From positions 358,501 to 422,500 of the forward strand of contig JAWNZC010000030.1 in assembly GCA_035771165.1 (NCBI GenBank): a stretch of 64,000 bases of DNA, written 5' to 3'. Within the stretch, counting starts at the first letter, position 1. Each line of letters begins with the position of its first letter. Positions 34,802 through 52,427 of the stretch are shown piece by piece. Source of the stretch: Paragorgia papillata. Taxonomy: Eukaryota; Cnidaria; Anthozoa; Scleralcyonacea; Coralliidae. A program made the translations under genes and the position numbers. The notes beneath the pieces were generated by a model, which worked only from the letters and a program-made list of their open reading frames with translations, did no database searches and was not told where the DNA came from.

Positions 34802-34824
34802 TTCCTATTCTTTTTGAATAGGAA
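34802..34824. terminator. Intergenic hairpin 1
   Basis: TTCCTATTC, 5-nt T loop, GAATAGGAA: nine perfect pairs between the stop of gene 1 and the start of gene 2. Candidate mRNA 3'-end signal; see findings. Confidence 0.6.
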
Positions 34825-34845
34825 TTTAAACCCTTTAAATAAACA

Positions 34846-35664
34846 ATGAGTTACTTCTATGGTTATGGCAAACGCCAGCATATTGCTAAACATGATGATA
34901 CAGAAAAGAGAATTAAAGACATTGAGAAAAAAATAGAAAATTTGGGAGTGGAAGGAAATTACAAAACTGTTTTTGACATCAACATAACAAAAGCTGTCAA
35001 AACCTTTAAAATTGCTAACGGAGAAAGAAGAATAACCCAAGCACGGAGTGGAAACTCTGTTTTATGGCAAGATGATAAATCCGTTGCCCCTACATTTGGC
35101 TCGGATCCCGTTGGTCCAGGTACAGATTACATTGAAAACACAGGAGGAAACTACATGTGTTTTTGCAACACTGAAATGCAGTTTAATGATGTTTCTGTTT
35201 TTGTTGTTTGTGCGGTAGTGGATACATCTGTTCCCGACGATTGGTGTTATCTTATTGGGAATGATAATGGTAATTATGATAAATATCTTAGCTTTAAATC
35301 CTACTCTTACTCCAAATTAGTAATTGGTGGTTTAAGAACCTCTGGAAAGAAAACAGTAAATATTGTTGGCCCCCATAGCATTCTTAGCAAACACTTGGTT
35401 TCCTGCCATTGGCTGGGGACTGGAAGTGCTATATATTTAAATAGCAAAAAGTTGGCAGGATCAGATTTTAAATCGGATTTAGCAGATATAGGTAGTCCAT
35501 TTGGATCTGTTTTTTTAAATAAAAGATTGAGTGGAGTCCCCTCAAATAGTACCCAGCTAAAAGGAAAAATCTATGGGATTAAAATTGTCCATGGCCCATT
35601 GCTCCCAGCTGAGATTGTAAAAATTAATGAGGATATGATGAAAGAATATGGAAACTTTATATAA
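34846..35664 (+). CDS. Polinton spike/fibre-like protein with LamG-like head (272 aa)
   Basis: The N-terminus (MSYFYGYG) is followed by a charged coiled-coil-like stretch of about 30 residues (DDTEKRIKDIEKKIENLG), then about 210 residues that read like a concanavalin/LamG beta sandwich (e.g. SVFVVCAVVDTS, LVSCHWLGTGSAIYLN, KGKIYGIKIVHGPL). The last part, with a bit of sequence inside loop, small Gly residues and a C-terminal helix, matches LamG-like phage and viral adhesins (family-level reading by eye). The next gene starts with almost the same N-terminal peptide, so both probably dock on the same virion protein. Starts at ATG after AATAAACA. Confidence 0.6.
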   Translation: MSYFYGYGKRQHIAKHDDTEKRIKDIEKKIENLGVEGNYKTVFDINITKAVKTFKIANGERRITQARSGNSVLWQDDKSVAPTFGSDPVGPGTDYIENTGGNYMCFCNTEMQFNDVSVFVVCAVVDTSVPDDWCYLIGNDNGNYDKYLSFKSYSYSKLVIGGLRTSGKKTVNIVGPHSILSKHLVSCHWLGTGSAIYLNSKKLAGSDFKSDLADIGSPFGSVFLNKRLSGVPSNSTQLKGKIYGIKIVHGPLLPAEIVKINEDMMKEYGNFI

Positions 35665-35670
35665 ATAAAC

Positions 35671-37202
35671 ATGAGTTACTACTATGGATACTATGAAGAT
35701 TTAGATTTACCCAGTTATGGAAAGGATGGAGAACAGGGTCCCCAAGGTGATACAGGACCCCAAGGTGATACAGGACCACAAGGACCTCAAGGTTCAGCAG
35801 GTCCAAAAGGGGACAAAGGGGACAAAGGTTTAACAGGGTCTAAAGGATCCCAAGGAGATACCGGTAGCAGAGGAACCCAAGGAATTCAGGGTTTAGCAGG
35901 TTTTAAAGGATCCAAAGGAGACAAGGGAGACAAAGGAGATACTGGTAACACAGGACCCCAAGGTTCAAAAGGAGACAAAGGAGATCAAGGAAACCAAGGG
36001 TCTCAAGGTGTAGCAGGACCCCAGGGGTCCAAAGGGCTTCGCGGTTCCCAAGGTTCTAAAGGAGACAAAGGAGATAAAGGAGACAGAGGTTTAACAGGTA
36101 CAGCAGGTGCAGCAGCCCAACAAAAAGGAGACAAAGGAGACAAAGGAGATAAAGGAGACAAAGGAAAGGAGACAAAGGAGACAAAGGGCTAACAGGAGCC
36201 AAAGGAGACAAAGGAGACCATGGTATTAGAGGACCCCAAGGACTTAAAGGAGACAAAGGATCCCAAGGTTTAGCAGGTGTAACAGGTGCAGCAGGTTCCA
36301 AAGGAGACAAAGGAGACCATGGAACCCAAGGATCCCAAGGATCCAAAGGAGACAAAGGAGACAAAGGAGACAAAGGTATGGCGGGTTCAGCAGTTCAAAA
36401 AGGAGACAAAGGAGATCCTGGTGATGATGGAGCAAAAGGAAACAAAGGTAACACTGGGGCAACAGGTCCACAAGGTCCACAAGGTCCACAAGGTCCGCAA
36501 GGAGCCCAAGGTCCTCAAGGATCCAAAGGTACCACCGGTAACACAGGATCCCAAGGACCCCAAGGACCTCAAGGAACCAAAGCAGATAAAGGGGACAAAG
36601 GAGACAAAGGAGATCAAGGAGATCAAGGAATCCGAGGATTACCAGGAGGAAAAGGATCAACTGGACTAAGAGGGCTCAGAGGTCTAAGAGGAGTTACAGG
36701 AACCACAGGACCAGCTGGATCTTTTTCGCAGTTAATAAAGTACAAAAAAGATAGTGGAAAAACAAACCACAAAGCAGGTAGTTGGGATAACACCAATAAC
36801 ATTAGCACTTTGGTATCATTTACATCAACCAATGATACTGGAAAATATTTAATATCATATTGGTTTTTACTTCAACCAGATGGCCATAAAATAGACCAAC
36901 AAAGTAGAAAATCTTCATGGTGGGATGGTAGTACTTACAATGCATATTTTGATCTAAAAACAAACCTTTACCATGGAGATATTACAAACAGATCAAATGA
37001 ACTTTCAGGTTTGGAAACTATAACCATGGGAAGAACATATAACGAAAACCTTTCCCACAATGTATTTTGTCAAGGTATTGCAACCATAAAAAAGGCGGCC
37101 CAAATATCTTTACATAGCTATTCTGGTTCGGTTGGTGATGACTATACCTACTTGTTTTTCAATGTGTGGGATGTTGAAATTAACCTGCTTAAAATTAATT
37201 AA
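35671..37202 (+). pseudogene. Polinton collagen-like fibre with C1q/TNF-like head, frameshifted
   Basis: Starts MSYYYGYYED. About 320 residues of Gly-X-Y repeats follow (GPQGDTGPQG, KGDKGDKG), then a roughly 160-residue C-terminal domain with beta-strand pattern (GKYLISYWFLLQ, NAYFDLKTNLYHGD, YLFFNVWDVEI) like C1q heads. The Gly-X-Y pattern leaves the first frame near 36165-36190, inside a run of GGAGACAAA units, and continues in another frame; the first frame then stops at 36192. One net base is missing. A polymerase slip in the repeat, an assembly error or real inactivation are all possible. The role, by analogy, is a trimeric receptor-binding fibre. Confidence 0.75.
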
Positions 37203-37207
37203 TAAAA

Positions 37208-37417
37208 ATGGACTCCAAAGAATTTCCAAAAGTTTTGAAATGTAAATTTGGATACCAATGTGTTTTGGTTAAGGCTGTCCGTAAAACAGCAACAGACAAC
37301 TCCATAGAAAAAATATACTACAACATAAGCCATAAAAATATTTGTAATTATTTACACCCCAATGAAGACCTAATAAAAATGCTAACACGGATAGGTGTAT
37401 ATGATACTGTTTTTTAA
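37208..37417 (+). CDS. Polinton small unknown protein (69 aa)
   Basis: Starts six bases after the fibre stop, following AATTAATAAAA. Short, basic, with two Cys (LKCKFGYQC) and no recognised family. The tight spacing and start motif support a real gene. Confidence 0.55.
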   Translation: MDSKEFPKVLKCKFGYQCVLVKAVRKTATDNSIEKIYYNISHKNICNYLHPNEDLIKMLTRIGVYDTVF

Positions 37418-37548
37418 ACTAGTTGTTAAACTAGTTGTTGAACAAATTTAAACTAGTTGGCTTTGCGGGTTAAACAAATTTAAACTAGTTGACAAACTAG
37501 CTGTTAAACTAGTTGCCAAACAAACTTAAACAAATTTTAAACAAATAA
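37418..37548. repeat. AACTAGTT palindrome cluster
   Basis: The intergenic gap holds six copies of AAACTAGTTG or near variants, several in alternating spacing with AACAAATTTAAAC. It is the only gap in the element with this repeat and could be a regulatory or replication site (inference). Confidence 0.6.
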
Positions 37549-37920
37549 ATGGAAGCAGAACAAAGTAAACAAAGTGAAAAAAGTGAAGAAAAACAAACTA
37601 TTACAAAAACCCCTCCACCTGTCCGCACCAAAAATCCAAAAAGAGTTGCTCAAGGAAAAAAACTGGCTGCAATAAGTAGGGCCGCAAAACTAAAGAAAAA
37701 ACAACAGTTGGAAACAATCCCAGAAGAAACTGAAAAAATGTCTCCAACATCTTTAATAACATTTACTGGAACAATACTTGGAACTTGTTGTACACTCCTA
37801 CTGACTTACATCGCATACAGTAAATGGGTAGGGACCCAACCTGGAGACAAACATCTTAACCCCACAGAAATTCCAAAGACAAAAACAGTTTACAAAGACC
37901 TTTCCCAATATGATCTTTAA
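37549..37920 (+). CDS. Polinton small membrane protein (123 aa)
   Basis: Starts after TAAATAAATGG context (TAAATG). The N-terminal 65 residues are charged, Lys/Gln-rich; one transmembrane helix at about 69-90 (LITFTGTILGTCCTLLLTYIAY); a short tail. No family recognised. Probably virion membrane or structural (inference). Confidence 0.65.
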   Translation: MEAEQSKQSEKSEEKQTITKTPPPVRTKNPKRVAQGKKLAAISRAAKLKKKQQLETIPEETEKMSPTSLITFTGTILGTCCTLLLTYIAYSKWVGTQPGDKHLNPTEIPKTKTVYKDLSQYDL

Positions 37921-38014
37921 AGGGAATTCTTCACCAAAATCTTTTTTAAATCGCTGTACACTTTGTAAGATTTAATCATGTCTAACCATTTCTTTACAAA
38001 GACCAAAAATGAAA

Positions 38015-38036
38015 TCCTATCCATAACAGGATAGGA
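38015..38036. terminator. Intergenic hairpin 2
   Basis: TCCTATCC, 6-nt loop, GGATAGGA, eight perfect pairs, about 95 bp after the preceding stop and 32 bp before the next possible start. Confidence 0.55.
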
Positions 38037-38067
38037 ATTCAAATAAAAAATATGATCGCACACAGTT

Positions 38068-38259
38068 ATGCAACAGAATGTGTTTTTAGAAGCCAAACCT
38101 GGTTTAACATTGGAAAACTTATACACCTTATTTCAGAAGGGAGCTATGATGGATACAAACTTTGGTTGTTATATAGTAAATATGATCTTAAAAACTATAA
38201 TGAAAACCATTGTTATCATATTTGGGGAAATTTTGAACCCTAAACAAAAATTTTTTTAA
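38068..38259 (+). CDS. Possible small hydrophobic protein (63 aa)
   Basis: The ORF ends in a hydrophobic stretch (CYIVNMILKTIMKTIVIIFGEIL) and stops 11 bases before the capsid gene. An alternative overlapping frame starts at 38052 with a better start context but reads less like protein. One of the two is probably real. Confidence 0.4.
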   Translation: MQQNVFLEAKPGLTLENLYTLFQKGAMMDTNFGCYIVNMILKTIMKTIVIIFGEILNPKQKFF

Positions 38260-38270
38260 CACTATAATAA

Positions 38271-39481
38271 ATGAATACCGAAAGAGAAGTTGAATTAATT
38301 CCTGGTTATAACCGTTTACACAAAAGTTCAATAACCGGAGAACGAGCCCGAAATGTAATTACTTTCAATCCTAATTCGGCTAATGAAGGAGAAGTAATTT
38401 ACATACATATTCCAAAACTTAAACCTGGAGCAACCTTAGTTCCTGACAAGATGTTTCTTTTGTTTGACTTTAAGAACAAAAATACCAAATCTTGGTTTAA
38501 TAACAATCTTGCAAAACAGCTACAAGAACGACTGGAAGTCAGGTTTGCAGGCGAAAAAGTTTATGACAACACAGGAGAAAGTCTTCTGGAAACATACAAG
38601 GACTTGTGGATAGACAAACATGAAAGAGCCAATATGATCGAAGATGGTGTTGCCACAGAAAACCAAAGAAAACTTATTTCAAAATCTGATGATGCCTCTT
38701 CCGACTCATATGCAGCTGTTTACGGAACAAAACAACGAATCCAGTTGGGTAAAATTTTAAAGGACCACGGATTGTATGCCCCCCACAGCATGGCAAATGA
38801 CTTACAATATATTATTACATTGCCAAAAGCCACCAATATTATGAAAGCCCAAAGTAGTCAATCTGTGGCTGGTTACTCACTTGAAATATCGAACTTGAGT
38901 ACGAAACCATTACAAACTTTTCCCTAGTTAGTGAAATAGAATCTTCCTACCAAGTGGGTCGAGCCCTTTCCTTCGAACATGTAACCCTGATGAAAACCTC
39001 ACCATGGGCAAGAGCAACAACTTTAATCAACGAAACCATTAATTTACCAAGAAAGAGCATGAAGGCTGTTGTAATGTTGTTTACAAAAGCTTCCAGAGAT
39101 GGATCAGAAGAGTTTGTTTACCCAAACATTGAGAATGTAAAAATTACTATTGAAGGAGTTCCAAACAGTATTTACTCCCAAGGAATTCCAAAACGGAGGT
39201 TGTTTGAAGAGGCTGAACGACTTTTCAGACAAACAAATTATCCCACCATCCAAGCTGAGGAGTTCTTCACAGAAGAGAAATTCGCGCTTGTTGTAGATCT
39301 TCGTTCGATCAATGACAACGATGTGTATGGAGATGGTACCAGGCTTTTAACAACCCAGTCCGGAATCATGCTTGAAATTACAAAGAAGGCAACATCAGCT
39401 GACCTTAAATGCCATGTTTTCATTCTTTCGGATGGACTTCTAAAAGTTCAAGGAGGAGCATTCCAGAGTGTAAATTACTAA
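38271..39481 (+). pseudogene. Polinton probable major capsid protein (double jelly-roll), frameshifted
   Basis: Two frames (38271-38927 and a second from about 38900 to 39481) clearly form one protein of about 400 residues with a net one-base loss near 38890-38900. The N-part contains KQLQERLEVRFAGEKVYDN and ETYKDLWI; the second part contains PRKSMKAVVMLFTKAS and KFALVVDLRSINDN. These are features I associate with the capsid protein of cnidarian Polintons; length and position just upstream of the ATPase and penton also fit. It would form the icosahedral shell (family knowledge). No restored sequence is given. Start is TAAATG. Confidence 0.7.
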
Positions 39482-39489
39482 AATAAAAA

Positions 39490-40101
39490 ATGGAAACCCT
39501 TAAACCATTTAATATGATCATTGTCGGAATGACAAGCTGTGGGAAAACCCACTATTTGCTAAAAATGTTGTCTGAAACCCCAAAACAGTTTGAGAATATA
39601 TTTTTAATTTGTCCTACTTTTGAATGGAACAAAACATATCTTGAATGGGAACACCTCAATGACCCAAGATTTTTTGTTATTCCTTGCGACCAAGACGAGT
39701 CCGAAGATTTTTTAAAATATGTTGTGGACTACTGTAAAGGAAGACCTTCGTTAATTATTTTGGATGACTGTGCTTCGGGGCAGACTGTTAAAAACAGGAC
39801 TAGTGAGTTAGTTAAACTTGGTTTTGGCGCCAGGCATATGGATATTAGTACAATAGTTGTTACCCAACAACTAACCAGCATTGCGAAACCATATCGAGAA
39901 AATATTTCCAAACTTGTTACATTTTACAACCCAAACAGAAAAGACATGCAGGTTATCTTAGATGACTATCTGGATATACCAAAAGAAGAAGAGAAAAAAA
40001 TTAAAGAAATATTAAAATCCCAAAAATATTCAAGACTAGAAATTAACCTGATCCATCCATACCACCATACAATAAATGAGGAACCTGAGAATTTTACTTA
40101 A
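39490..40101 (+). CDS. Polinton packaging ATPase (A32/FtsK-HerA type)
   Basis: 203 residues. Walker A is IIVGMTSCGKTHYLLK near residue 11; Walker B is SLIILDDC near 93; a sensor-like VVTQQ occurs near 124, then FYNP and a helical C-terminus. The family pumps DNA into capsids. Length is normal for Polintons. It starts after AAATAAAAAATGG and its end overlaps the penton start by 26 bases, so translation of the two may be coupled or they use separate mRNAs. Confidence 0.9.
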   Translation: METLKPFNMIIVGMTSCGKTHYLLKMLSETPKQFENIFLICPTFEWNKTYLEWEHLNDPRFFVIPCDQDESEDFLKYVVDYCKGRPSLIILDDCASGQTVKNRTSELVKLGFGARHMDISTIVVTQQLTSIAKPYRENISKLVTFYNPNRKDMQVILDDYLDIPKEEEKKIKEILKSQKYSRLEINLIHPYHHTINEEPENFT

Positions 40102-40723
40102 AAATGGGGAAACAACTGTTAAATTTGAAGATCCACTGATCATAGAGGATACAAAAATGATAGTAAAAAATGCAACAGTGTTTTGGAATTTTAACAACAT
40201 AACAAGTCCAACACATATTATGCATGGGTCGAAACAAATTAGTTTCAACAATGGTTATTGGACTATTGGCATGATTATGATGAGATTAAAGGAAAACGGT
40301 ATAAAAACTGAACTACTTCCTTTTAGCTGTAAAATTAGGTTATTTCCAACAGAGAACCTTTCCCTACTTAAACTTGGTCCTTTGCTAGGATATCCAGAAA
40401 CAACAATAATTAAAAAAGGAGCAAACCTAGTCAGTCCAAAGACAGCCAACATAAATCTTGGGATGAGATTTGTATGCATAACTTGCAATATGATTGACGG
40501 AACAAAAACCTCATTTTCTGGAAACCGGGATAGAACAGCTGTAGTTCTTCCAATTACAACAAAACAGATATTGAAGGGATCCGTTGAAAAGTTTGATAAC
40601 ATTAATTCTGTAGCCATGTTAGACAATGGTATTTACAACGAACTTAAATTTAGGATTGACCAAAATGTTGGTGAAATTCTTCTTGAAATCTTTTTATGTC
40701 CAAAAAAATTTGAAATCTCCTGA
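40076..40723 (+). CDS. Polinton probable penton / minor capsid protein
   Basis: 215 residues, start overlapping the ATPase end. Beta-rich with SFNNGYWTIGMIMMRLKENG (a strand-helix feature common to penton proteins of Polintons and adenoviruses) and ELLPFSCKIRLFP near the middle. Family identification is by pattern and by its position after the ATPase, near the capsid gene. No catalytic residues. It would fill fivefold vertices and could be the dock for the two MSYxYGY proteins (inference). Confidence 0.65.
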   Translation: MRNLRILLKNGETTVKFEDPLIIEDTKMIVKNATVFWNFNNITSPTHIMHGSKQISFNNGYWTIGMIMMRLKENGIKTELLPFSCKIRLFPTENLSLLKLGPLLGYPETTIIKKGANLVSPKTANINLGMRFVCITCNMIDGTKTSFSGNRDRTAVVLPITTKQILKGSVEKFDNINSVAMLDNGIYNELKFRIDQNVGEILLEIFLCPKKFEIS

Positions 40724-40738
40724 ACTATAATAAAAGAG

Positions 40739-40915
40739 ATGATTGACCAAAATTTAGAAACCATTAAAGGGGTGTTAAATGACATGGTAAACTTGAAAGT
40801 AACTTTAAAAAAAAATAAAAACCAAAATTTAACAAACTTAAAAGTGGTGTTAAATGACTTAATAGCGGCTTTAAGGAACTATGTGAAAGTAGTAGAAATT
40901 TTAAAAATTTTCTAA
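40739..40915 (+). CDS. Polinton small helical protein (58 aa)
   Basis: ATG follows CTATAATAAAAGAG. The short Leu/Val/Lys protein has two internally similar halves (GVLNDMVNL and VVLNDLIAA), predicted as amphipathic helix. No family. A hairpin follows 12 bp after the stop, as for other genes of the element. Confidence 0.55.
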   Translation: MIDQNLETIKGVLNDMVNLKVTLKKNKNQNLTNLKVVLNDLIAALRNYVKVVEILKIF

Positions 40916-40926
40916 AAGCCATTAAC

Positions 40927-40954
40927 ATTTTGTAGTTAAAAAAAACTACAAAAT
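40927..40954. terminator. Intergenic hairpin 3
   Basis: ATTTTGTAGTT, A6 loop, AACTACAAAAT: eleven perfect pairs. Confidence 0.65.
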
Positions 40955-40968
40955 TTTACCCTTAATAA

Positions 40969-41199
40969 ATGAATAAGAACGAAGTTTTAAATGACTTGTA
41001 TCAAGCAGCATTAATTACACTTGCAGCTGTTGGAACAAGCATGGTTTTCAAAAAGGTATTAGGCCAATCTTTAGCGGCACCAGCCAGTCTTAAAGAGACA
41101 GCTAAACTTGGAGTAGCTGTTTCTGTTGGGTTATTTTCAGTAAAAATGGCACAAGAAAAAGGATACTTACCCAAAAATTTGGATCCAAAGAAAGTTTAG
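40969..41199 (+). CDS. Polinton small two-helix membrane protein (76 aa)
   Basis: Starts TAAATG. Two moderately hydrophobic segments (ALITLAAVGTSMVF and LGVAVSVGLFSVKM) flank a short loop, with a basic C-terminus. Resembles small virion membrane or capsid-lining peptides but no family match. Confidence 0.6.
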   Translation: MNKNEVLNDLYQAALITLAAVGTSMVFKKVLGQSLAAPASLKETAKLGVAVSVGLFSVKMAQEKGYLPKNLDPKKV

Positions 41200-41270
41200 T
41201 TTTTTAAAAAAGTTTTTTAACTTAAATTGAATTTTAATTTTTAAAATGGTAATAATAAAATAGGAAGAGT

Positions 41271-41708
41271 ATGAACGGATTATTTGAAAAATTGGAACAA
41301 CCAATTACATTAAAATTTAAACAAACCAAGTGCTTTGGGCTAAAACCCAACACATTTAAAGGAAAACTAAAAAGTGGTTTCAAACTAATCATCCAACTAA
41401 GTGATGAAAACTGTGAAAATGTTTTGGCAGCCTGGAGCCAACTCAAGCCAACCAAAGACACTCCATTTTTTGGAGATTTCGAAAACCTAATATCTTTCAA
41501 GATCAACGAAGAGGACCTAAGCAGGAAAAACAAGAAAGACCTCAGCGAAGGACTGTGCCATGTTGATCTGAAAGTGGAAATCAACCAGGTGTTTGCCAAC
41601 AAGAAAAAAGAGAGGTTCCCCCAGTTCCAAATAAAATTTTTGAAAAGGGTAGAGGATCCTCCACGAGAAAGACTCCCAATTGAAGACACAGGCGACATGA
41701 GTGATTAA
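41271..41708 (+). CDS. Polinton unknown protein (145 aa), possibly ssDNA-binding
   Basis: Starts in AGGAAGAGTATGAACGG. Alternating beta pattern (KSGFKLIIQLSD, HVDLKVEINQVF, PQFQIKFLKRVED) and an acidic tail (PIEDTGDMSD) are compatible with an OB-fold single-strand DNA-binding protein, which a protein-primed replicon needs, but this is a guess from pattern only. Confidence 0.55.
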   Translation: MNGLFEKLEQPITLKFKQTKCFGLKPNTFKGKLKSGFKLIIQLSDENCENVLAAWSQLKPTKDTPFFGDFENLISFKINEEDLSRKNKKDLSEGLCHVDLKVEINQVFANKKKERFPQFQIKFLKRVEDPPRERLPIEDTGDMSD

Positions 41709-41719
41709 ACAAAAATGTA

Positions 41720-41742
41720 TCCATATCCAAAAAGGATATGGA
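41720..41742. terminator. Intergenic hairpin 4
   Basis: TCCATATCC, A5 loop, GGATATGGA: nine perfect pairs, 12 bp after the stop and 15 bp before the next ATG. Confidence 0.65.
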
Positions 41743-41756
41743 AACAAAATTAATAA

Positions 41757-42152
41757 ATGGCATCAATGGTAGCAGGAGGATTGTTTAATGCTATTGCCTT
41801 TGCAGGTGCTGGATACCTGTTTCAATCATTTAACAAAGATGGTTTTGCTAAAGAGGCAAAAAGACATAATTTGGCAACAGAACAACTCCAAAAAGCTCAT
41901 GAAAAGTTTTTTGAAAATGAAATTAAAAGGAAGGACAGACAAAGAGAATTACAGGATGAAATAAGGACTGCGGGGTACAATATGCAAGATACTTCAAAAG
42001 CATTCCAAGAACTTCATAAAATTTTGCAAGGTCCTCCAGAGCCAAGACTTGAGGATTTTTACCAACCAAGCGAAGAAATGGAGAAATACCAAATTATTGC
42101 TGTAACACTTTCTGGAACAGGTGCTGGATGGTTGTTGTCAAGATTTGTTTAG
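41757..42152 (+). CDS. Polinton membrane/virion protein with PSE motif (131 aa)
   Basis: Gly/Ala-rich hydrophobic N-terminus (AGGLFNAIAFAGAGYLF), a central charged helix of about 60 residues (KRHNLATEQLQKAHEKFFE), then DFYQPSEEMEK and a C-terminal hydrophobic helix (IIAVTLSGTGAGWLLS). I recognise this layout from other cnidarian Polinton-like elements, where it is uncharacterised. Start TAAATG. Confidence 0.65.
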   Translation: MASMVAGGLFNAIAFAGAGYLFQSFNKDGFAKEAKRHNLATEQLQKAHEKFFENEIKRKDRQRELQDEIRTAGYNMQDTSKAFQELHKILQGPPEPRLEDFYQPSEEMEKYQIIAVTLSGTGAGWLLSRFV

Positions 42153-42158
42153 GATAAA

Positions 42159-42188
42159 AATTTTGTAACTTTTTTGGGTTACAAAATT
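42159..42188. terminator. Hairpin 5 between convergent genes
   Basis: AATTTTGTAAC, 8-nt loop, GTTACAAAATT: eleven perfect pairs, centred between the stop of the rightward gene (42152) and the leftward gene (42196), so it could end transcripts from both sides. Confidence 0.7.
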
Positions 42189-42195
42189 AAACTGT

Positions 42196-42600
42196 TTATT
42201 CTTTTTGGATCTTTGATAACATATACTTAAAAATTTGAAAAGATGTTTTAGGGAGTTTTTTAACACCTTCAAAATTTAAAATATATTCTATTACTCCAAA
42301 AGATTTTTCAGGATTTTTAAATGGCGGTATTGTCAAAGTTTTTAAAAGATCTCTTTGGCATATTGCAAGAATGGCATACAATACATGTTTTTTCATGGGT
42401 CGCCTTGTAACCAAACCTTGTTCTTTAAGGGTTTCAAATTTTTTTTCAAAATATTCTATAAGTTTTAGTACAACAAATTTTGGTTCTTTATGGGGTGGTA
42501 TTGGGTTCTGGGTTGGACAAATACAAATACACATGGGTTTGTCGCATTTACACAAACATTTGTGGTATATCCTCATAATCGCACAGCCATCTGCAAGCAC
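42196..42600 (-). CDS. Polinton unknown protein, Cys-rich N-terminus (134 aa or shorter)
   Basis: Cys cluster near the start (HKCLCKCDKPMCICICP) suggests metal binding; the rest is helical and basic. If the second Met (about 42576) is used, overlap with the neighbouring leftward gene falls from 53 to 29 bases. No family recognised. Confidence 0.6.
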   Translation of the reverse strand: MLADGCAIMRIYHKCLCKCDKPMCICICPTQNPIPPHKEPKFVVLKLIEYFEKKFETLKEQGLVTRRPMKKHVLYAILAICQRDLLKTLTIPPFKNPEKSFGVIEYILNFEGVKKLPKTSFQIFKYMLSKIQKE

Positions 42601-42958: not shown

Positions 42959-42966
42959 TCCTTTTA

Positions 42967-44325: not shown

Positions 44326-44343
44326 TATTTATTTAAATAAAAA
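44326..44343. promoter_or_regulatory. 18-bp divergent promoter
   Basis: The only sequence between the ATG of the leftward 452-aa gene and the ATG of the integrase is TATTTATTTAAATAAAAA, close to a perfect palindrome (TTTATTTAAATAAA). Confidence 0.6.
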
Positions 44344-45324: not shown

Positions 45325-46599
45325 ATGGATGAAAATTTTGGAGAACCCTCCGGGAAAAACATGGAAATGAAAAATTTAAACCAAGAAGATGATAATGATG
45401 ATGAATATTATGATGCAGAAACATCTGTAGATGATGTGGATCTTGGTAAAGATTATGATGAGGAGATTGCAGACAGACTTAAAAAAATCCGAAAAAATCT
45501 TGATACTGGTGTAATAGATAAGACCACCGCAAAAAAAGCCGAAAAAGCGGTAAAAAATATGGTAGGTAAAATGAGGAGGGCTGAAACAGATAGAAGAAAA
45601 AATTTTTTCAAAGTTAAATTAAAACAAATAGTAAACAAAAATGATGGAGGGAAAAAGGGTGCAAGTGCAGAATTATTAAATAAAAGTTTTATAGATTACG
45701 ATGAAAAAACAGGAGCAGAAAGTGGGATTACCTTTGAAGGAGTAAAGGTTGTTGTTAGAGATGAAGATAGCAACAACTTCATTTTAAACAAAGAGGAACC
45801 AGATAAGAAAAAATTAAAAAAATTTAATGGTCTACTTTTAAAAGCAAAAATAGAACACAAAAACACAGCAGATGGGGTTACCGAAGAGTTTTCAGGACTC
45901 CAACCAGAAAATATTATTCCTGAAAATATTACCAACATTCGTGAAAATGTTGCTGAACAACTGGGTGATGAAGTAACAATAGGGATGGATGACATTGAAA
46001 CAAATGATGATGGAGAAATTGATGAAGAAGCTGGTGATGGTGCTCTTCGAAATCTTGTTGGAACTTTAAAATCTAATAGCCTGCAAGCTGTTGAAATTAA
46101 CCAAAAGTTTTTTAAAGATTTGGCAGACAAAGAAAAAGATCCAGTAAAAAGAAGAAAGTTTAAGGAGGTTCAGGCTATGAGCACCCTAAGGGCTGAAGAA
46201 CTTAGATTGGAAGCAAACATGGCGCCAGAAACTGAATATGTTAAAAATATGCTTAGAGATCATATCCTAACAAAATTTGAAAGGTTTAAAGAATGGGCAA
46301 AAGAAAACATGGGTGCAACAGCTGCAATAGCCATTTCCATCGCTGGAATTATAACAACAGTAGTATTGGCTGGAGGAAAAGGAGTTGCGGCGGCTGCAAA
46401 GGCAACAGGAGCATTAGGAAAGGCTTTAGCAAAACTTGCAAAAACTGCTTTGCCTATATTGGTTCCAATTTTAAGCATACTTGCAACTGCATTGTCTTGG
46501 GGAGCAAAAGGAATAGCATGGTTGGCAAAGAATTTGTGGGTTCTTGCAATAGGACTTACCTATATTGTTTACAAAGAATACAAAGAAAGGTATAAATAA
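45325..46599 (+). CDS. Polinton virion membrane-active protein (424 aa)
   Basis: Begins directly after the integrase stop (TAAATG). Acidic N-terminus (DDNDDEYYDAETSVDD), a long helical charged middle, and a C-terminal hydrophobic block of about 95 residues with Gly/Ala-rich helices (AIAISIAGIITTVVLAGG, ALPILVPILSILATALSW, NLWVLAIGLTYIVY). The layout suggests a membrane-inserting virion protein, similar in style to penetration proteins of non-enveloped viruses; function is inferred only. Confidence 0.6.
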   Translation: MDENFGEPSGKNMEMKNLNQEDDNDDEYYDAETSVDDVDLGKDYDEEIADRLKKIRKNLDTGVIDKTTAKKAEKAVKNMVGKMRRAETDRRKNFFKVKLKQIVNKNDGGKKGASAELLNKSFIDYDEKTGAESGITFEGVKVVVRDEDSNNFILNKEEPDKKKLKKFNGLLLKAKIEHKNTADGVTEEFSGLQPENIIPENITNIRENVAEQLGDEVTIGMDDIETNDDGEIDEEAGDGALRNLVGTLKSNSLQAVEINQKFFKDLADKEKDPVKRRKFKEVQAMSTLRAEELRLEANMAPETEYVKNMLRDHILTKFERFKEWAKENMGATAAIAISIAGIITTVVLAGGKGVAAAAKATGALGKALAKLAKTALPILVPILSILATALSWGAKGIAWLAKNLWVLAIGLTYIVYKEYKERYK

Positions 46600-46601
46600 A
46601 C

Positions 46602-47123
46602 ATGGAACCAAAACAAAATAAAGACTTTCAAGAAGAACCATTTAAAGATCCGCTAAATTTAAACCTTAGGGAAGAGCTTATCCGGCTTTCTTCCGAAAAA
46701 AAAATTAAACATTCGGAACCATATCTTAAAAAAGCCTCATTGGCGGCACTTGAAAAAATTAAGCATAATTATGATCAGGCTCAACACGACAAAGTTAACA
46801 GTGTGTTAACAGAAACCCTTATAAACAAGTTTTCAGTGTTAATGGAACAGTTAGATCTGATAAAAGATGATGAAAAACTGAATAAAGAATTATCAACAAA
46901 CAAACTATTTTGTGATGATGTTAAATCCCTGGTATCAAAAATATCGCCCTATATTCCAATGATCGGATTGTTATGTGGTGGAATAATAGTAGCCAAACAT
47001 GTTTGGGACCGAGGCGAAGCCGAAGTGAAAAAACCATCAAATAAAAATGAGCCTGTACAAAGTGATCAGGATCCTAGCAAAAATGTCGATAGTGGCAATG
47101 TTGCTGATTCCAATAACAGTTGA
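46602..47123 (+). CDS. Polinton single-pass membrane protein (173 aa)
   Basis: Starts two bases after the preceding stop (AAATAAACATGG). Soluble helical N-part, one transmembrane helix at about 116-132 (YIPMIGLLCGGIIVAKHVW), polar Asp/Asn/Ser-rich tail. The DNA for DRGEAE right after the helix is the GACCGAGGCGAAGCCGAAG repeat word. Confidence 0.65.
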   Translation: MEPKQNKDFQEEPFKDPLNLNLREELIRLSSEKKIKHSEPYLKKASLAALEKIKHNYDQAQHDKVNSVLTETLINKFSVLMEQLDLIKDDEKLNKELSTNKLFCDDVKSLVSKISPYIPMIGLLCGGIIVAKHVWDRGEAEVKKPSNKNEPVQSDQDPSKNVDSGNVADSNNS

Positions 47124-47149
47124 GTTGTTATTACTTAAATTTTTACTGT

Positions 47150-47177
47150 TTTCCTAATCTTTTGTTGGATTAGGAAA
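47150..47177. terminator. Intergenic hairpin 6
   Basis: TTTCCTAATC, 8-nt loop, GATTAGGAAA: ten perfect pairs, 27 bp after the stop. Confidence 0.65.
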
Positions 47178-47190
47178 CTCTTTATAATAA

Positions 47191-47319
47191 ATGTGGTGGA
47201 ATTTTTTTAGTTGGATTAGAAAAAGGAAAGACTGTCAAAACCTAATTTTAAGACAAAAATGGGAAGACCGTCAAAACCTAATTTTAAAAAAGGAAAAACA
47301 AAATAATAAAAAAGAATGA
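47191..47319 (+). CDS. Polinton very small ORF (42 aa)
   Basis: Start TAAATG; MWWNFFSWIRKRKDCQ then two related segments (CQNLILRQKWE, RQNLILKKEK). Aromatic N-terminus plus basic tail. Overlaps the following zinc-finger ORF by four bases (ATGA). Too short to be sure, but start motif and hairpin placement support it. Confidence 0.45.
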   Translation: MWWNFFSWIRKRKDCQNLILRQKWEDRQNLILKKEKQNNKKE

Positions 47320-47450
47320 CCTCAGCTAATAGTATTTTATGCGGACTTTGCAAATACAAAGTAAAAACAGAAACAGCACTATGGTTACACATAAAGGTTA
47401 CCCACAGAGACACCTTATATGTTAAAAAAACAGTTTTAAAAAATTTTTAG
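47316..47450 (+). CDS. Polinton mini C2H2 zinc-finger protein (44 aa)
   Basis: The entire protein is one finger: CGLCKYKVKTETALWLHIKVTH plus a short basic tail. Spacing C-x2-C-x12-H-x4-H. Coupled to the preceding ORF through an ATGA overlap. Likely DNA- or RNA-binding. Confidence 0.6.
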   Translation: MTSANSILCGLCKYKVKTETALWLHIKVTHRDTLYVKKTVLKNF

Positions 47451-47471
47451 TCTCACAAAGCGTTAGCAATG

Positions 47472-47496
47472 TTTCCTAATCTTGTTGGTTAGGAAA
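47472..47496. terminator. Intergenic hairpin 7
   Basis: TTTCCTAA, 9-nt loop, TTAGGAAA, eight pairs, similar in sequence to hairpin 6. Confidence 0.55.
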
Positions 47497-47504
47497 TAAT
47501 AAAA

Positions 47505-47846
47505 ATGGGAAACTCTAAAAGCAGCATTGCAAAACCAAAAGAAAAATTTAACAAAAACCATACCCTAAGAAAGGGGTTCCAATTTGGAATAAGTTTTGGA
47601 AAGGAAGATTTAACAATGGAGGGAAATATTCAAATAGGGTGGACAAACAAAATAGTAAAAAATTATTCTTGTGTTTCTTCAAAAAAATGTTTGGAAAATT
47701 TTTTTCCAAAACCTTTAGACCCTTCTTTAAACCCTCCTTTAACAAATTCGTTGGCAAAGCCTTCTGACCGAGGCGAACGAAGTGAGCGAAGCGAAGCCGA
47801 AGACGAGGCGAACGAAGTGAGAAACTCCCCACCAAAACTAATATAA
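47505..47846 (+). CDS. Polinton probable N-myristoylated protein (113 aa)
   Basis: MGNSKSS is a strong N-myristoylation motif (Gly2, Ser6). The middle has beta-like FGISFGKEDLTMEGNIQIGW; the C-terminal 25 residues are Glu/Arg/Ser repeats (DRGERSERSEAEDEANE) encoded by reiterated GCGAACGAAGTGAGCGAAGC words, so probably a repeat invasion of the gene end. Membrane targeting is inferred. Confidence 0.55.
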   Translation: MGNSKSSIAKPKEKFNKNHTLRKGFQFGISFGKEDLTMEGNIQIGWTNKIVKNYSCVSSKKCLENFFPKPLDPSLNPPLTNSLAKPSDRGERSERSEAEDEANEVRNSPPKLI

Positions 47847-47853
47847 TAAAACA

Positions 47854-48003
47854 ATGGAAATGTTTAAAATAAGAATGGATGAAAGAAGAAAATTTGGTGA
47901 AAAATTAAAAAAAATTCGTGAGGAAAACCCTATTTGCAACCACCCCAAATCAGAGTTAAGAACCCTAGCTAAAAAAATTGGGATAAAGGGGGTTACAAAA
48001 TGA
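47854..48003 (+). CDS. Polinton small basic protein (49 aa)
   Basis: MEMFKIRMDERRKFGEKLKKIREENP then a short helix (SELRTLAKKIGIKG) like half a DNA-binding helix-turn-helix. Overlaps the next start by ATGA, so the two are probably co-expressed. Confidence 0.5.
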   Translation: MEMFKIRMDERRKFGEKLKKIREENPICNHPKSELRTLAKKIGIKGVTK

Positions 48004-48272
48004 ACCTAAAAACACTCTGTGAAAGTCTTGATATTCCATTGGTTAGGAATGAAATCTTTGACAGATGCAACAGAGAGCAAATTAAAAATCCTGTCGGAAT
48101 AACATTTACAGATTTGGATGGGAAAAAAACAAAATTCCATAGTATTTACAGAGCAGCATCCTGTCTAAATAAAAATCCTAGTTGTATTCCATATTACATA
48201 AGGAAAGGAACACTTATTTTTTACCGTGGAAAAGTGCAAACTGTTAGTCGAAGTTCTTCCGAGGCGGAGTGA
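48000..48272 (+). CDS. Polinton NUMOD-like DNA-binding protein (90 aa)
   Basis: Contains KFHSIYRAASCLNKNPSCIPYYIRKG, matching the pattern of nuclease-associated modular DNA-binding domains (Ser-x-x-x-Ala-Ala...Ile...Tyr). No nuclease domain is attached. Perhaps a regulator. The C-terminus (SRSSSEAE) is encoded by the CCGAGGCGGAG word. Confidence 0.5.
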   Translation: MNLKTLCESLDIPLVRNEIFDRCNREQIKNPVGITFTDLDGKKTKFHSIYRAASCLNKNPSCIPYYIRKGTLIFYRGKVQTVSRSSSEAE

Positions 48273-48290
48273 GAACCTTCATTCTTCAAA

Positions 48291-48314
48291 TTTCCTATTC
48301 TTTTGAATAGGAAA
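48291..48314. terminator. Intergenic hairpin 8
   Basis: TTTCCTATTC, T4 loop, GAATAGGAAA: ten perfect pairs; the same stem as hairpin 1. Confidence 0.7.
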
Positions 48315-48505
48315 TGTAATGGAAACTGAAAGGCTTAACTTCAACAGGATATTTGAAACATTGGTAAAACTCCGGTAACAATGAATGATGTTAATTTAAA
48401 AAGGAAGTATAATGTTGTTTGGATCCTTTATTAGTATACTTTTTTTAGGATTTTAAATCGATTTTTCCTTTAAGTATTTTAATAATTTTTTTAACACTAT
48501 AATAA
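48315..48505. other. Gap before PolB gene
   Basis: About 190 bp with no convincing ORF; ends in TTTTTTTAACACTATAATAAATG, the same leader (AACACTATAATAAATG) as precedes the capsid gene at 38271. Confidence 0.6.
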
Positions 48506-51500
48506 ATGGAAACTGACACTAAACTTTTGGAAAAACGGGAAAATGCCCGTTTAAGAAAACAACGACAACGTGAGAGGGACCGAAAAATGGAACCCTTTAA
48601 ACCTGAAAGGCTTGCTAAACTTCAACAGGAAAAGGAGTTTAGGGAAGCCAAAAAGCAGGAAAAGATTGTAAGGAAAGAAGCAAGGAAACAGGAACAGATT
48701 GCCAGGAAGGAAGCAAGGAAAGCAGAACAGGTTGCTAGGAAAGCAACAAGGAAAGCAGAAAAGTTGGCTGAAAAATTAAGATGGCAGCTAAAGTGGAAAG
48801 GGACTGCTAAGACTGCTAAAACCAGACAGGTACTTGGGAACAAGCTTGGAAGGATTTTCAACAAAAGAACGAGGGAGTTTAAAAAACTAAGGGAAACAGA
48901 GCCAAAACTCATTAGAATTAGAAATTTCGCTAATGGGAAAGCGTCTCTGTATGAAATTTCAGGACAGGGTTTCAGGGATCCTGCTTTATTCTTAGAAAGA
49001 ACAACACAAACTGTTGAGAACCTAATTAACAGTATTGGAAACTCTAAAAAAGTAAAAACAACCCTTATTTGTAAACTTGTAAAGTATGATTATACCGCTG
49101 GATGGGAAGATGTTGAAGAGTTTTACTTTACCTGCAATATGAGGCCAATGACGACAGAGGAAGATGTTAAAGAACATTATGAAATGATGAAAAAAGAGAT
49201 GCTTGAAAATTTAGCAGCCCACCAAAAGAAGGGATCTGGATGGTCAATAAGGTCAGTTGAAAGTTTACACATCTCTATAACAAAATATAGACCTTTAAAC
49301 GGTAAGGGTTTCAAACCCCTTCCAAAAGTCATCCAGGACAAAAAGGCCATCATCAATCCTAAAAACAAGGATAACAAGTGTTTTATCTATGCTGTTGCAA
49401 TAGCAGAGATGGTGAAAAAAGATCTAGGAAAACCACATTTAGAAAAAGTTGGACCTGCTGTCAGAGAACAGGCTGAAAAGTATAACATCAAAGGATTGGA
49501 ATTTCCTCTTAAAATTAAGGACATCTCCAAATTTGAGGAGATGAATGAGATGAATGTAAATGTTTTTGGTTTTGATCCTGAAATCCAAAAGGTTTTTCAA
49601 ATACAAATAAGTAGGGCTGACCATTCAAATGTTGTAAGCCTATTCTTGGATAAAAACCATTACAGTACCATTAAGAACAAAGGTAGACTGTGGGATAGCC
49701 AAGAAAACAACCATAAAGCCAAAAAGTTTTGGTGCGACTTTTGTACAAACCCATTTACCACAGAAGTCAAAATGCTGCAACATAGGGAAATCTGCAAAAC
49801 CCATGATGCCCAGGTTCAAATATTTCCTATAAAGGATAAGAATGACATCATGGGATGGGGTGAGAAGGATTATAAAAAAACACAAGATGTTCCCTTCATC
49901 ATTGTTCATGATTTCGAGTGTTTCTTAAAACCATTGGATACGGTGGAACAAAGTGAAGACAAGAGTTTTACCAAGAAATACCAGAAACATGATCCTAGTA
50001 GTTACTGTTTCCAAATTATATGCTCGGATCCAACTATTTACCCAGGGAAAGTTGTAAGCTACACCAAAAAACATGAGCATGAGGATATTGGGAAAATGTT
50101 TGCTGAAGCTTTAAAAATAGAGGCTACGGAAATCTGGGAAACCTACATGAAAACTCCAAAGCCAATTATCATAAGTGAGACCCAAGAGAAAGATTTCCAG
50201 TCAGCTGTAAACTGTTATGTTTGTGGAAAAGAGTTAGGAAAAGATAGGGTAAGGGACCATGATCATCTCAATGGAGAATATAGGGGGCCTGCCCATAACA
50301 CCTGTAATTATTCAATGAGTAGTGCCAAATTTATTCCTATAATAGCCCATAATAGTATGAATTACGACATGCATCATACCATTGAAAGTTTGGGTGAAAC
50401 AGAAGGTCAAATTACTTGTATACCAAAGACAGACGAAGAGTATATCAGCGTTAGTAAAAAGATATGGATGAAAAATGGTTGGAAAAGATTACCTGATGGC
50501 ACACAAAAAGAAAAGTGGGTTCCTTTAGAACTAAGATTCCTGGATTCCTTAAAATACATGCCAAGTTCATTAGACTCACTCGTTAAAAACCTGAAACCAG
50601 AGGCTTTTGTGTACACAGAAAAATTCTTCAAGGATCCAAAAAACCTGTTAAAAAAGAAGGGAGTATTCCCCTATGATTTCATGACAGGCATGAAAAGTCT
50701 GGACTATCCACAACTTCCAACCAAAAAGGAGTTCTACTCAAAACTAAATGGAACTGGTATTTCAGATGAGGATTATGCCCATGCCCAGAATGTTTGGAAA
50801 GCCTTTGGTTGCAAGACGATGAGGGACTACCAGGATTTGTACAACAAACTGGATACTGTTCTTCTCGGAGATGTAATCCAAGATTTTAGAAAGACAAGCA
50901 AACAGACTTATGGGATTGACCCAATGTGGGCCTACACAAGTCCTGGTTTGGCTTGGGCTGCTCTACAAAAGATGGGCCAGAAGTTGGAACTAATAACGGA
51001 CCCTGACATGTACTTGTTCTTCGAAAAAAGTATCCGTGGAGGGATCTCGGTGGTCCCAGGCCGAGAATATTATGCAAACAACAGGTATATGGAGGAATAT
51101 GATCCAAAGCAGGAAAGTAAATTCATTCCATATTTAGATGCAAACAACCTGTATGGGGATGCAATGAGAAAACCTCTTCCAATAAGAGAATTTAAGTGGA
51201 TGTCAGAAGAAGAGCTAGCAAACTGGGAAGACTATCTTGTGGAAACCAAAGATGGGGAAGAGGGAGAAGGATGCATGTTGGAAGTGGATTTGGAGTATCC
51301 GGAAGATCTACATGATCTCCACAATGATCTCCCCTTCGCAGCTGAGAGAGTTGAGATTGATGGGGTTGTAAAACTAGTGCCAAATCTAAACAACAAAAAG
51401 AATTATACTCTCCACTACCGCGCATTAAAGCAGTGTTTGAAATACAAGCTAAAACTTTTAAAACTCCACAGAGGAGTCAAGTTTGTGGAGAAGGCTTGGA

Positions 51501-52387
51501 TGAAACCCTTTATCGACCTTAACACAAGGTTGAGGACAGAAGCCACCAACGACTTCGAGAAGGATTTCTACAAGCTGATGAACAACTCAGTCTTTGGGAA
51601 GACAATGGAGAATGTTCGTAACAGAGTAGATATTCGACTCGTCTCTTGGGCTGACCAGCTTGAAAAGCTTGCGAGAAGGCCAAATTACAAGTCCATTAAC
51701 ATATTTAATGAAAATTTGGGGGCTGTCCATATGAAGAAAACTTCTGTTAATCTTAACAAGCCAATCTTTACAGGAGCTGCCATCCTGGATTTGAGTAAAA
51801 TTACTATGTATGATTTCCACTATGGCTACATCAAACCAAAGTATGGTCCTAAGGCTCAGCTGTTGTTTACAGATACGGACAGCCTCTGTTACGGGATTAG
51901 AACAAAAGATTTCTTCAAGGACATCAGTGGAGATGTTAAAACCCACTTCGATACCAGCAACTTTCCTAAAGTCCATCCAAGTGGTATAGAATGCGGGGTA
52001 AACAAGAAAGTTCCTGGAATGATGAAGTCAGAGACTGGAGCAAAACAGATCAAGGGGTTTGTAGGACTTCCAGCCAAGCTGTATGCTTTTAAGATGGCTG
52101 AGGAGAAAAACCCTGAAACTGGACTAATGGAATGTAAAGAAGAGAAAAGATGTAAGGGAATTAAGAGAAGTACCATTAAGGATATCAAGTTTGAGGATTA
52201 TGTAAAATGTCTACACTCAGGAGAAAACCTAATGAAGGGGATGAACACCTTTAGGAGCTACAAGCATAAAGTTTATACCATCCATATGAACAAGATTGCT
52301 CTTAACTCGGCAGACGATAAGAGAGTTATTGGAGAGGATGGAATTTCCACCTTGGCAATTGGACATTATAGAACCAAAAATGTTTAA
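48506..52387 (+). CDS. Polinton protein-primed family B DNA polymerase
   Basis: 1293 residues. In order: Lys/Arg/Glu-rich helical N-terminus (about 1-130); a C2H2-like cluster CDFCTNPFTTEVKMLQH near 411; exonuclease motif I IVHDFECF near 468; an endonuclease VII-like CYVCGKELG...DHDHLNGEYRG...CNY cluster near 570-600; Exo II IIAHNSMNYD; Exo III YNKLDTVLLGDV; motif A YLDANNLYGDAM near 877; motif B KLMNNSVFGKTMEN near 1024; motif C FTDTDSLCYG near 1123. All catalytic Asp residues are present. It copies the element from a protein primer at the ITR ends (family knowledge). The frame is uninterrupted, so this part is intact. The N-terminal extension may hold the terminal protein (inference). Confidence 0.95.
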   Translation: METDTKLLEKRENARLRKQRQRERDRKMEPFKPERLAKLQQEKEFREAKKQEKIVRKEARKQEQIARKEARKAEQVARKATRKAEKLAEKLRWQLKWKGTAKTAKTRQVLGNKLGRIFNKRTREFKKLRETEPKLIRIRNFANGKASLYEISGQGFRDPALFLERTTQTVENLINSIGNSKKVKTTLICKLVKYDYTAGWEDVEEFYFTCNMRPMTTEEDVKEHYEMMKKEMLENLAAHQKKGSGWSIRSVESLHISITKYRPLNGKGFKPLPKVIQDKKAIINPKNKDNKCFIYAVAIAEMVKKDLGKPHLEKVGPAVREQAEKYNIKGLEFPLKIKDISKFEEMNEMNVNVFGFDPEIQKVFQIQISRADHSNVVSLFLDKNHYSTIKNKGRLWDSQENNHKAKKFWCDFCTNPFTTEVKMLQHREICKTHDAQVQIFPIKDKNDIMGWGEKDYKKTQDVPFIIVHDFECFLKPLDTVEQSEDKSFTKKYQKHDPSSYCFQIICSDPTIYPGKVVSYTKKHEHEDIGKMFAEALKIEATEIWETYMKTPKPIIISETQEKDFQSAVNCYVCGKELGKDRVRDHDHLNGEYRGPAHNTCNYSMSSAKFIPIIAHNSMNYDMHHTIESLGETEGQITCIPKTDEEYISVSKKIWMKNGWKRLPDGTQKEKWVPLELRFLDSLKYMPSSLDSLVKNLKPEAFVYTEKFFKDPKNLLKKKGVFPYDFMTGMKSLDYPQLPTKKEFYSKLNGTGISDEDYAHAQNVWKAFGCKTMRDYQDLYNKLDTVLLGDVIQDFRKTSKQTYGIDPMWAYTSPGLAWAALQKMGQKLELITDPDMYLFFEKSIRGGISVVPGREYYANNRYMEEYDPKQESKFIPYLDANNLYGDAMRKPLPIREFKWMSEEELANWEDYLVETKDGEEGEGCMLEVDLEYPEDLHDLHNDLPFAAERVEIDGVVKLVPNLNNKKNYTLHYRALKQCLKYKLKLLKLHRGVKFVEKAWMKPFIDLNTRLRTEATNDFEKDFYKLMNNSVFGKTMENVRNRVDIRLVSWADQLEKLARRPNYKSINIFNENLGAVHMKKTSVNLNKPIFTGAAILDLSKITMYDFHYGYIKPKYGPKAQLLFTDTDSLCYGIRTKDFFKDISGDVKTHFDTSNFPKVHPSGIECGVNKKVPGMMKSETGAKQIKGFVGLPAKLYAFKMAEEKNPETGLMECKEEKRCKGIKRSTIKDIKFEDYVKCLHSGENLMKGMNTFRSYKHKVYTIHMNKIALNSADDKRVIGEDGISTLAIGHYRTKNV

Positions 52388-52400
52388 AGATTAGTTTAAG

Positions 52401-52427
52401 ATTTGTATTCCAAAAAAGAATACAAAT
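52401..52427. terminator. Intergenic hairpin 9
   Basis: ATTTGTATTC, 7-nt loop, GAATACAAAT: ten perfect pairs between the convergent PolB and zinc-finger genes. Confidence 0.65.

Follow-up and report, generated by a model that had tools for sequence, protein, structure and literature searches.

In the cytoplasmic linear virus-like elements of yeast, pGKL1 and pGKL2, 12 genes have a TAAAN initiator in their promoters. Stem loops (median distance 26 nt, −7.5 kcal/mol), with T-enriched ends or a T-rich tract and without a common end sequence, follow closely on the stop codons, and disruption and rescue of a stem moved the mRNA 3′ ends in vivo (PMC6211774). The pGKL mRNAs lack a poly(A) tail and end near stem loops (PMC6831550). 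Transcripts of Mimivirus are cleaved and tailed at palindromes, the sequence of which is not conserved (PMC4402537). Further papers describe a hairpin signal at 16 genes of the Sputnik virophage and a CroV-type TCTA late promoter before all genes of Mavirus (PMC6723459), poxvirus late promoters made up of a T-rich core followed after 5–7 bp by TAAAT(G/A) at the ATG (PMC5294985), and six matches to the histone 3′ untranslated region (UTR) stem loop among genomes of polinton-like viruses and virophages (PMC12220804). The subject of the present analysis is a Polinton/Maverick element of 19.4 kb, located at 33751–53156 of a 64-kb stretch of DNA (the window), which contains nine hairpins at the ends of its genes and an AATAAA tag before the ATG of most of them. 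On both signals the element would most resemble, by analogy, the pGKL elements, and the best reading of the two together is a viral-type transcription punctuation. How animal Polintons express their genes, and whether they form virions at all, is an open question, and the signals described below hint that the genes of this element are perhaps not read out in the ordinary way.

An earlier note on this DNA had listed nine perfect stems of 8–11 bp, and all of them were found to be present, as follows.

34802–34824, + strand: hairpin 1, 9 bp, 57 nt after the stop codon of gene 34214–34744
38015–38036, + strand: hairpin 2, 8 bp, 94 nt after the stop codon of gene 37549–37920
40927–40954, + strand: hairpin 3, 11 bp, 11 nt after the stop codon of gene 40739–40915
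41720–41742, + strand: hairpin 4, 9 bp, 11 nt after the stop codon of gene 41271–41708
42159–42188, unstranded: hairpin 5, 11 bp, in the middle of the convergent pair 41757–42152 (+) and 42196–42958 (−), 6 and 7 nt from the stop codons
47150–47177, + strand: hairpin 6, 10 bp, 26 nt after the stop codon of gene 46602–47123
47472–47496, + strand: hairpin 7, 8 bp, 21 nt after the stop codon of gene 47316–47450
48290–48315, + strand: hairpin 8, 11 bp, 17 nt after gene 48000–48272, with the next annotated start 190 nt further on
52401–52427, unstranded: hairpin 9, 10 bp, in the middle of the convergent pair 48506–52387 (+) and 52439–52693 (−), 13 and 11 nt from the stop codons

Stems were counted if they were perfect, at least 8 bp long and closed by a loop of 3–12 nt, in gaps of at least 24 nt. 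The element has 20 gaps with a total of 1079 nt, and 12 of these are long enough. Nine of the 12 hold one stem each, while dinucleotide shuffles of the same gaps averaged 1.08 and never exceeded 6 in 20,000 rounds; the stem frequency was thus above that of the shuffled gaps, the reverse of what the earlier note had named as refuting. The main gene table had been chosen by hand from the list of open reading frames (ORFs), and the count was therefore repeated with mechanical sets in which ORFs were taken longest first. With ORFs of at least 60 amino acids, eight of 13 gaps carried a stem (shuffle mean 1.43, maximum 6), and with ORFs of at least 100 amino acids eight of 10 did so (mean 1.48, maximum 6; 2000 shuffles in each case). 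Length-matched pieces of repeat-masked host flank carried stems in 0.59 of 12 on average and in four at most, and pieces of the element's own coding DNA in 0.30 on average and again four at most (2000 draws each). Expressed as density, stems occur at 8.3 per kb in gaps vs 0.40 per kb in genes. An 8-bp stem at 37417–37436, within a run of AACTAGTT palindromes, starts on the last base of a stop codon and for that reason was left out of the gap stems. The nine hairpins are thus in excess of chance.

RNA folding gave z-scores of −3.3 or lower on the + strand in eight of the 12 gaps, a score of −3 being reached by 1.3% of 150 coding windows. Gaps without strong folding were 37418–37548 (z −0.8), 38244–38270 (0.2), 41200–41270 (1.9) and the long gap 48273–48505 (−1.6). 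Taken singly, the stems have folding energies of −7.4 to −12.5 kcal/mol, with a median of −10.8. A search of 34100–52800 against known RNA families (Rfam) returned no match at E values up to 1.

Some details of the earlier description had to be amended. A 10-bp stem had been claimed as common to hairpins 1 and 8; it is present at 48290 only, and the stem at 34802 has 9 bp (TTCCTATTC/GAATAGGAA), the next pair outward being T–T. The loops, described as A/T, are purely so in four of the nine hairpins, but the others contain G or C, and both the length of the spacers (4–9 nt) and the sequence of the arms vary. It had also been proposed that structure rather than sequence is kept and that stems beyond the matching ones are unrelated. 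This is half right, since the stems fall into two loose sequence groups: a TTTCCTA(A/T)TC-like group at 34802, 38015, 47150, 47472 and 48290, with 41720 more distant, and a TTTGTA-like group at 40927, 42159 and 52401. Within the first group, 34802/48290 and 47150/47472 are pairs of near copies. Sibling stems differ by swaps that preserve pairing (T–A in 48290, A–T in 47150), which is suggestive at most because the stems had been selected as perfect. As read by eye, two tiny ORFs that both begin with ATGTCT (34785–34817 and 37978–38034) end within hairpins 1 and 2, which may be chance.

Beside the hairpins there is a second signal, which the earlier note had missed. AATAAA lies within 12 nt upstream of 23 of the element's 26 starts (the A of the ATG may supply its last base), as compared with four of 375 other ATGs on the + strand and none of 266 on the − strand (23/26 vs 4/375, Fisher p 3e-30). 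It was likewise found at 18 of 24 starts of the mechanical ORFs of at least 60 amino acids and at 15 of 19 of those of at least 100. The three misses are 41271, where AATAAA ends 11 nt before the ATG, 48000, a gene that overlaps the preceding one, and 42576, a start inside a frame-broken gene. The sequence AATAAATG is present at eight of the 26 starts, and TAAAT lies within 15 nt of 13 of them vs 17 of 375 controls. A start-signal 23-mer, TTTTTTTAACACTATAATAAATG, has only two copies in the window, one at a presumed capsid gene and one at the polymerase gene, and AATAAA also stands at both terminal starts and on both strands of a divergent gap.

38251–38273, + strand: start-signal 23-mer TTTTTTTAACACTATAATAAATG, at gene 38271–38927 (presumed capsid)
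48486–48508, + strand: start-signal 23-mer TTTTTTTAACACTATAATAAATG, at the start of the DNA polymerase gene
44326–44343, unstranded: divergent gap of 18 nt with AATAAA on both strands beside the starts at 44325 (−) and 44344 (+); no gene ends there

Taken together, the stems are best read as gene-end signals that set mRNA 3′ ends, a proposed function to which we give a probability of roughly 0.6. Each stem of 8–11 bp, once transcribed, would fold in the nascent RNA just beyond the stop codon, and the folded stem would halt the polymerase or direct cleavage, so that the 3′ end of the mRNA is set. In a convergent pair, a single stem could serve both genes. The (T/A)AATAAA directly before the ATG would act as the start tag, and start tag and end hairpin would together frame the transcription unit, while genes less than about 30 nt apart lack a gap stem, and transcription presumably continues into them from the preceding gene. 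Earlier, the stems had been taken to mark the ends of genes and to end or polyadenylate mRNAs there. Placement at gene ends is the best-supported part of this: the stems, their excess over chance, that placement and the start tag were observed, while we infer that the stems act in RNA and end transcripts. Polyadenylation at the stems would be a less fitting analogue, since the nearest parallel on both signals, pGKL, has untailed mRNAs that end near stem loops. Going one step further, the machinery would be viral in type, like that of poxviruses, giant viruses or pGKL, and not ordinary RNA polymerase II (Pol II) with AAUAAA-directed polyadenylation. With a start tag on the ATG and a hairpin after the stop codon, transcript ends could be predicted to within a few nucleotides. 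Transcripts that indeed began and ended at these signals would mean that the element bypasses ordinary nuclear gene expression; this would link animal Polintons in function with virophages, pGKL elements and large DNA viruses, and would indicate a possible helper virus, recognizable by the same start signal.

Several observations weigh against a 3′-end function. In tail-to-head gaps the distance from stem to next start is 8–21 nt in six of seven cases, four of them at 13–15 nt, which is tighter than the distance from stop codon to stem (11–94 nt). No run of five or more T was found in the 15 bases that follow each stem, and a classical intrinsic terminator is for this reason incomplete. Among the gaps of at least 40 nt, two lack a counted stem, 41200–41270 and 37418–37548, the latter with AACTAGTT palindromes instead. 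In the convergent gap 42153–42195, ATTAAA lies 33 nt past the + strand stop codon and a − strand AATAAA overlaps the other stop codon (42195). The analysis covers one copy of this Polinton lineage. Searches of IMG/VR with the ATPase, its 21-row alignment, the integrase, two ATPase homologues and a 34-row alignment of a 452-amino-acid protein returned no relative, and no relatives of the ATPase were found in phage records or prokaryote genomes. A 21-row polymerase alignment returned one relative from IMG/VR, L001 (1–15498), with a polymerase 35% identical. The proposed scan of related Polinton gaps against shuffles, carried out on L001, failed to reproduce the excess (three of 11 gaps, shuffle mean 1.89, p 0.28), and AATAAA was present at two of its 14 starts. 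Since L001 shows neither signal, the combination of hairpin and AATAAA is not common to all Polintons, and with this one distant relative lacking the signals the hairpin claim is limited to the present element. Finally, other IMG/VR loci exceed their shuffles as well (40 shuffles each; L004, three of seven gaps vs 0.23; L006, two of four vs 0.05; L009, two of six vs 0.28), so that an excess of stems alone does not name the machinery; these and others are presumed to be phages with ordinary terminators. By eye, the starts of L001 are preceded by TATATA runs, as in a Polinton-like element with a different start signal.

37417–37521, unstranded: tandem AACTAGTT palindromes after gene 37208–37417, where a single hairpin would be expected

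The close spacing between stems and following starts speaks for an alternative in which a dimeric protein binds the palindromes as DNA, these being operators or upstream promoter elements that belong to the following gene, and the position after the stop codon arises from compactness. The stems are also Watson–Crick perfect, as DNA palindromes would be, though perfect stems alone were sought. Position within tail-to-head gaps is indecisive, because a stem there both follows one gene and precedes the next, and the remaining gaps are more informative. Both convergent gaps carry a stem (42159 and 52401, as the earlier note had it), though no gene starts in either. The two terminal genes, which have free upstream DNA, have no stem within 25 nt of their starts, though the terminal repeat holds an 8-bp stem 50 nt upstream of them (34144–34163, with a copy at 52744–52763). 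In the 233-nt gap 48273–48505 the stem adjoins the stop codon, at 17 nt, and stands 190 nt from the next annotated start. These three placements favour gene ends, and spacers of 4–9 nt with differing arms are unlike a fixed dimer site. Over the whole element the distance from stop codon to stem has a median of 17 nt. Among the gene ends, 13 are followed by at least 40 nt of free DNA, and 11 of these have a gap stem; among the starts, 11 are preceded by at least 40 nt of free DNA, and six of these have a stem within 25 nt. One of the two ends that lack a gap stem, at 37417, is the one on whose stop codon the 8-bp stem 37417–37436 starts. The claim that the stems lie just after stop codons holds for seven of the nine (6–26 nt), but those at 34802 and 38015 are closer to the next start (21 and 15 nt). 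Binding of a regulator to DNA is accordingly regarded as an unlikely explanation of the stems.

AATAAA is familiar above all as a poly(A) signal. A second alternative is that the genes are transcribed by host Pol II, with the AATAAA before each ATG serving to polyadenylate the preceding gene and the hairpins merely shaping or protecting 3′ UTRs. The motif is indeed the canonical hexamer and follows many stop codons, the latter because the genes lie head to tail; the convergent gap 42153–42195, with its two hexamers, fits as well, and Polintons are chromosomal elements. However, AATAAA also stands at the divergent pair and at both terminal starts, places without a gene end, and on balance it is this that makes it a start signal here. 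Neither AATAAA nor ATTAAA was found within 120 nt downstream of the polymerase stop codon or of that of its convergent partner, in the gap of hairpin 9. Nor is a Pol II start signal apparent: TATA[AT]A lies within 45 nt of two of 26 starts vs 12 of 375 controls, and matches read at 35671 and 46602 directly adjoin the ATG, nearer than a Pol II TATA box would stand. Transcription and polyadenylation of the usual host kind therefore appear improbable. The last alternative, that the stems arose by chance or simply follow from gap sequence that is rich in A/T and duplicated, draws on the composition of the gaps and on the two near-copy pairs, by which the nine are not fully independent, but seven stems remain if each pair is counted once and shuffles that keep the composition never gave more than six, which leaves it hardly credible.

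The signals of the Polinton appear to work like those of pGKL, Mimivirus and Sputnik, by analogy and without membership in any of these systems, because the respective start signals are absent or not enriched. Like pGKL, it is a compact linear element with a TAAAN-type initiator by the ATG and stem loops close to stop codons; its stems are nearer and more stable (17 nt and −10.8 kcal/mol in the median, as compared with the 26 nt and −7.5 kcal/mol given for pGKL). The pGKL ends are described as T-rich, whereas the Polinton stems have no run of five or more T behind them, and the pGKL upstream box ATNTGA is not enriched in the Polinton (within 50 nt of three of 26 starts vs 35 of 375 controls). 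The Polinton is integrated in a chromosome and pGKL is cytoplasmic. The hairpin rule of Mimivirus finds a parallel in palindromes at gene ends beyond chance (nine of 12 gaps vs 1.08), but the Mimivirus early promoter AAAATTGA was found at none of 26 Polinton starts. Sputnik is a small double-stranded DNA relative of the Polinton for which a helper virus is known, and none is known for the Polinton; none of the 26 starts has the CroV-type TCTA late promoter within 30 nt. The AATAAATG starts are like poxvirus late initiators, for which TTTTTTTAACACTATAATAAATG may also be compared. As a candidate end signal, the poxvirus early signal TTTTTNT was tried and rejected, being present within 60 nt of two of 24 gene ends and thus not enriched; in sense coding DNA it occurs 13 times vs 17.7 (standard deviation 4.7) in codon shuffles. 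The stem loops reported for polinton-like viruses and virophages belong to a specific known RNA family, unlike those of the Polinton with their lack of an Rfam match. Among the open-access literature matches listed on Polintons, virophages and hairpins, there was no report of hairpin gene ends in any Polinton.

Family scans of the element's ORFs recognized no RNA polymerase, capping enzyme, poly(A) polymerase or RNase III, although several ORFs match nothing and divergent genes could escape such scans. The pGKL elements encode their own two-subunit RNA polymerase, helicase and capping enzyme, none of which was recognized in the Polinton ORFs, and Mimivirus has genes for an RNase III-like nuclease and a poly(A) polymerase (PMC4402537), neither being recognized here. 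The DNA polymerase is the only ATG-started ORF of the element above 500 amino acids. As no transcription enzyme was recognized, the host or another virus would have to supply the machinery. One tentative and rather doubtful scenario is transcription not by nuclear Pol II but by the viral-type RNA polymerase of a co-infecting large DNA virus, with TAAAT(G)-like starts and hairpin ends, which would make this a virophage-like animal Polinton. A search for such a helper through a shared start 17-mer, TAACACTATAATAAATG, matched 17 IMG/VR loci, L004, L006 and L009 among them; three of the 17 (L003, L011 and L017) had the match at an ORF start. AATAAA was found at only two of seven, one of 10 and one of five of their ORF starts, respectively, and these matches were read as chance on that account and the candidates rejected.

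The identity of the element was established from its ends and its marker genes. Polintons are recognized by long terminal inverted repeats with 5′-AG ends and a 6-bp target duplication. The terminal inverted repeats here are 466 bp long, with 471 of 477 aligned positions identical (blastn, end vs end). TATGGT on both flanks forms a 6-bp duplication, which is consistent with a target duplication and not independent proof of one, because TATGGT is part of the repeated unit of a 17-bp tandem array that makes up the flank. Together with a family B DNA polymerase, an integrase and an A32-like ATPase, the AG-ended repeats and the duplication bear out the label of Polinton given earlier.

33751–34216, + strand: left terminal inverted repeat (blastn), 5′-AGTAGGG at its outer end, extending into the start codon of the first gene
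52691–53156, − strand: right terminal inverted repeat (blastn vs the left end), followed by TATGGT, which also precedes the left repeat
48506–52387, + strand: DNA polymerase B gene, 1293 amino acids, motifs LLFTDTDSL, DANNLYG and NNSVFGKTMEN, with a weak endonuclease VII match
44344–45324, + strand: retroviral-type integrase gene, rve 8e-07 at 29.7 bits (just under the Pfam cut-off of 32.6), phrog_8463 1.8e-10
39490–40101, + strand: A32-like packaging ATPase gene, Pox_A32 6.3e-16

The 1293-amino-acid ORF matched no Pfam polymerase model and no PDB sequence at E ≤ 0.01. It did match 7852 of 7994 scored candidates at E ≤ 0.001 with conservation of DTDS and DANNLYG, motifs that we take to be those of a family B DNA polymerase. 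The matches listed include sequences from the coral Stylophora pistillata and the scallop Ylistrum balloti, and the host is, to judge from these, probably an animal. For the A32-like ATPase, 646 of 722 candidates matched at E ≤ 0.001, and Polintons closer than L001 have an ATPase 60–69% identical to it. The likely capsid pieces 38271–38927 and 38990–39481 had no match in Pfam, PHROGs or NCBIfam, and no protease family was recognized among the element ORFs scanned. Two ORF pieces with collagen repeats lie inside the element.

A 452-amino-acid protein encoded at 42967–44325 has 329 homologues at E ≤ 0.001 among 5587 candidates and no family match. It was considered as a transcription factor and rejected, the structural model having a mean predicted local distance difference test score (pLDDT) of 63.5 and no structural match at E ≤ 0.001 among PDB and viral models. 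Smaller ORFs gave matches too weak to build on: a Nab2-type zinc finger at 37208–37417 (Pfam, 0.0002, below cut-off), PriCT_2 (primase C-terminal) in the 63-amino-acid ORF at 38052–38243 (0.0004, 21.1 bits vs a cut-off of 22) and C2H2 fingers at 47316–47450.

The two terminal genes (34214 and 52693) start precisely where the terminal repeats end on the inside, so that the repeats give two different genes the same start region; the gene on the right codes for C2H2 zinc fingers. Three genes are broken across frames, 35671–37202 (collagen-repeat), 38271–39481 (presumed capsid) and 42196–42958 (cysteine-rich, − strand). They coexist with terminal repeats that are 99% alike, and assembly error or early decay may be responsible. 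Outside the element, arrays of a 10-bp unit at 14778–16934 and 18930–21274 lie in opposite orientation and are ~90% complementary over 2.1 kb.

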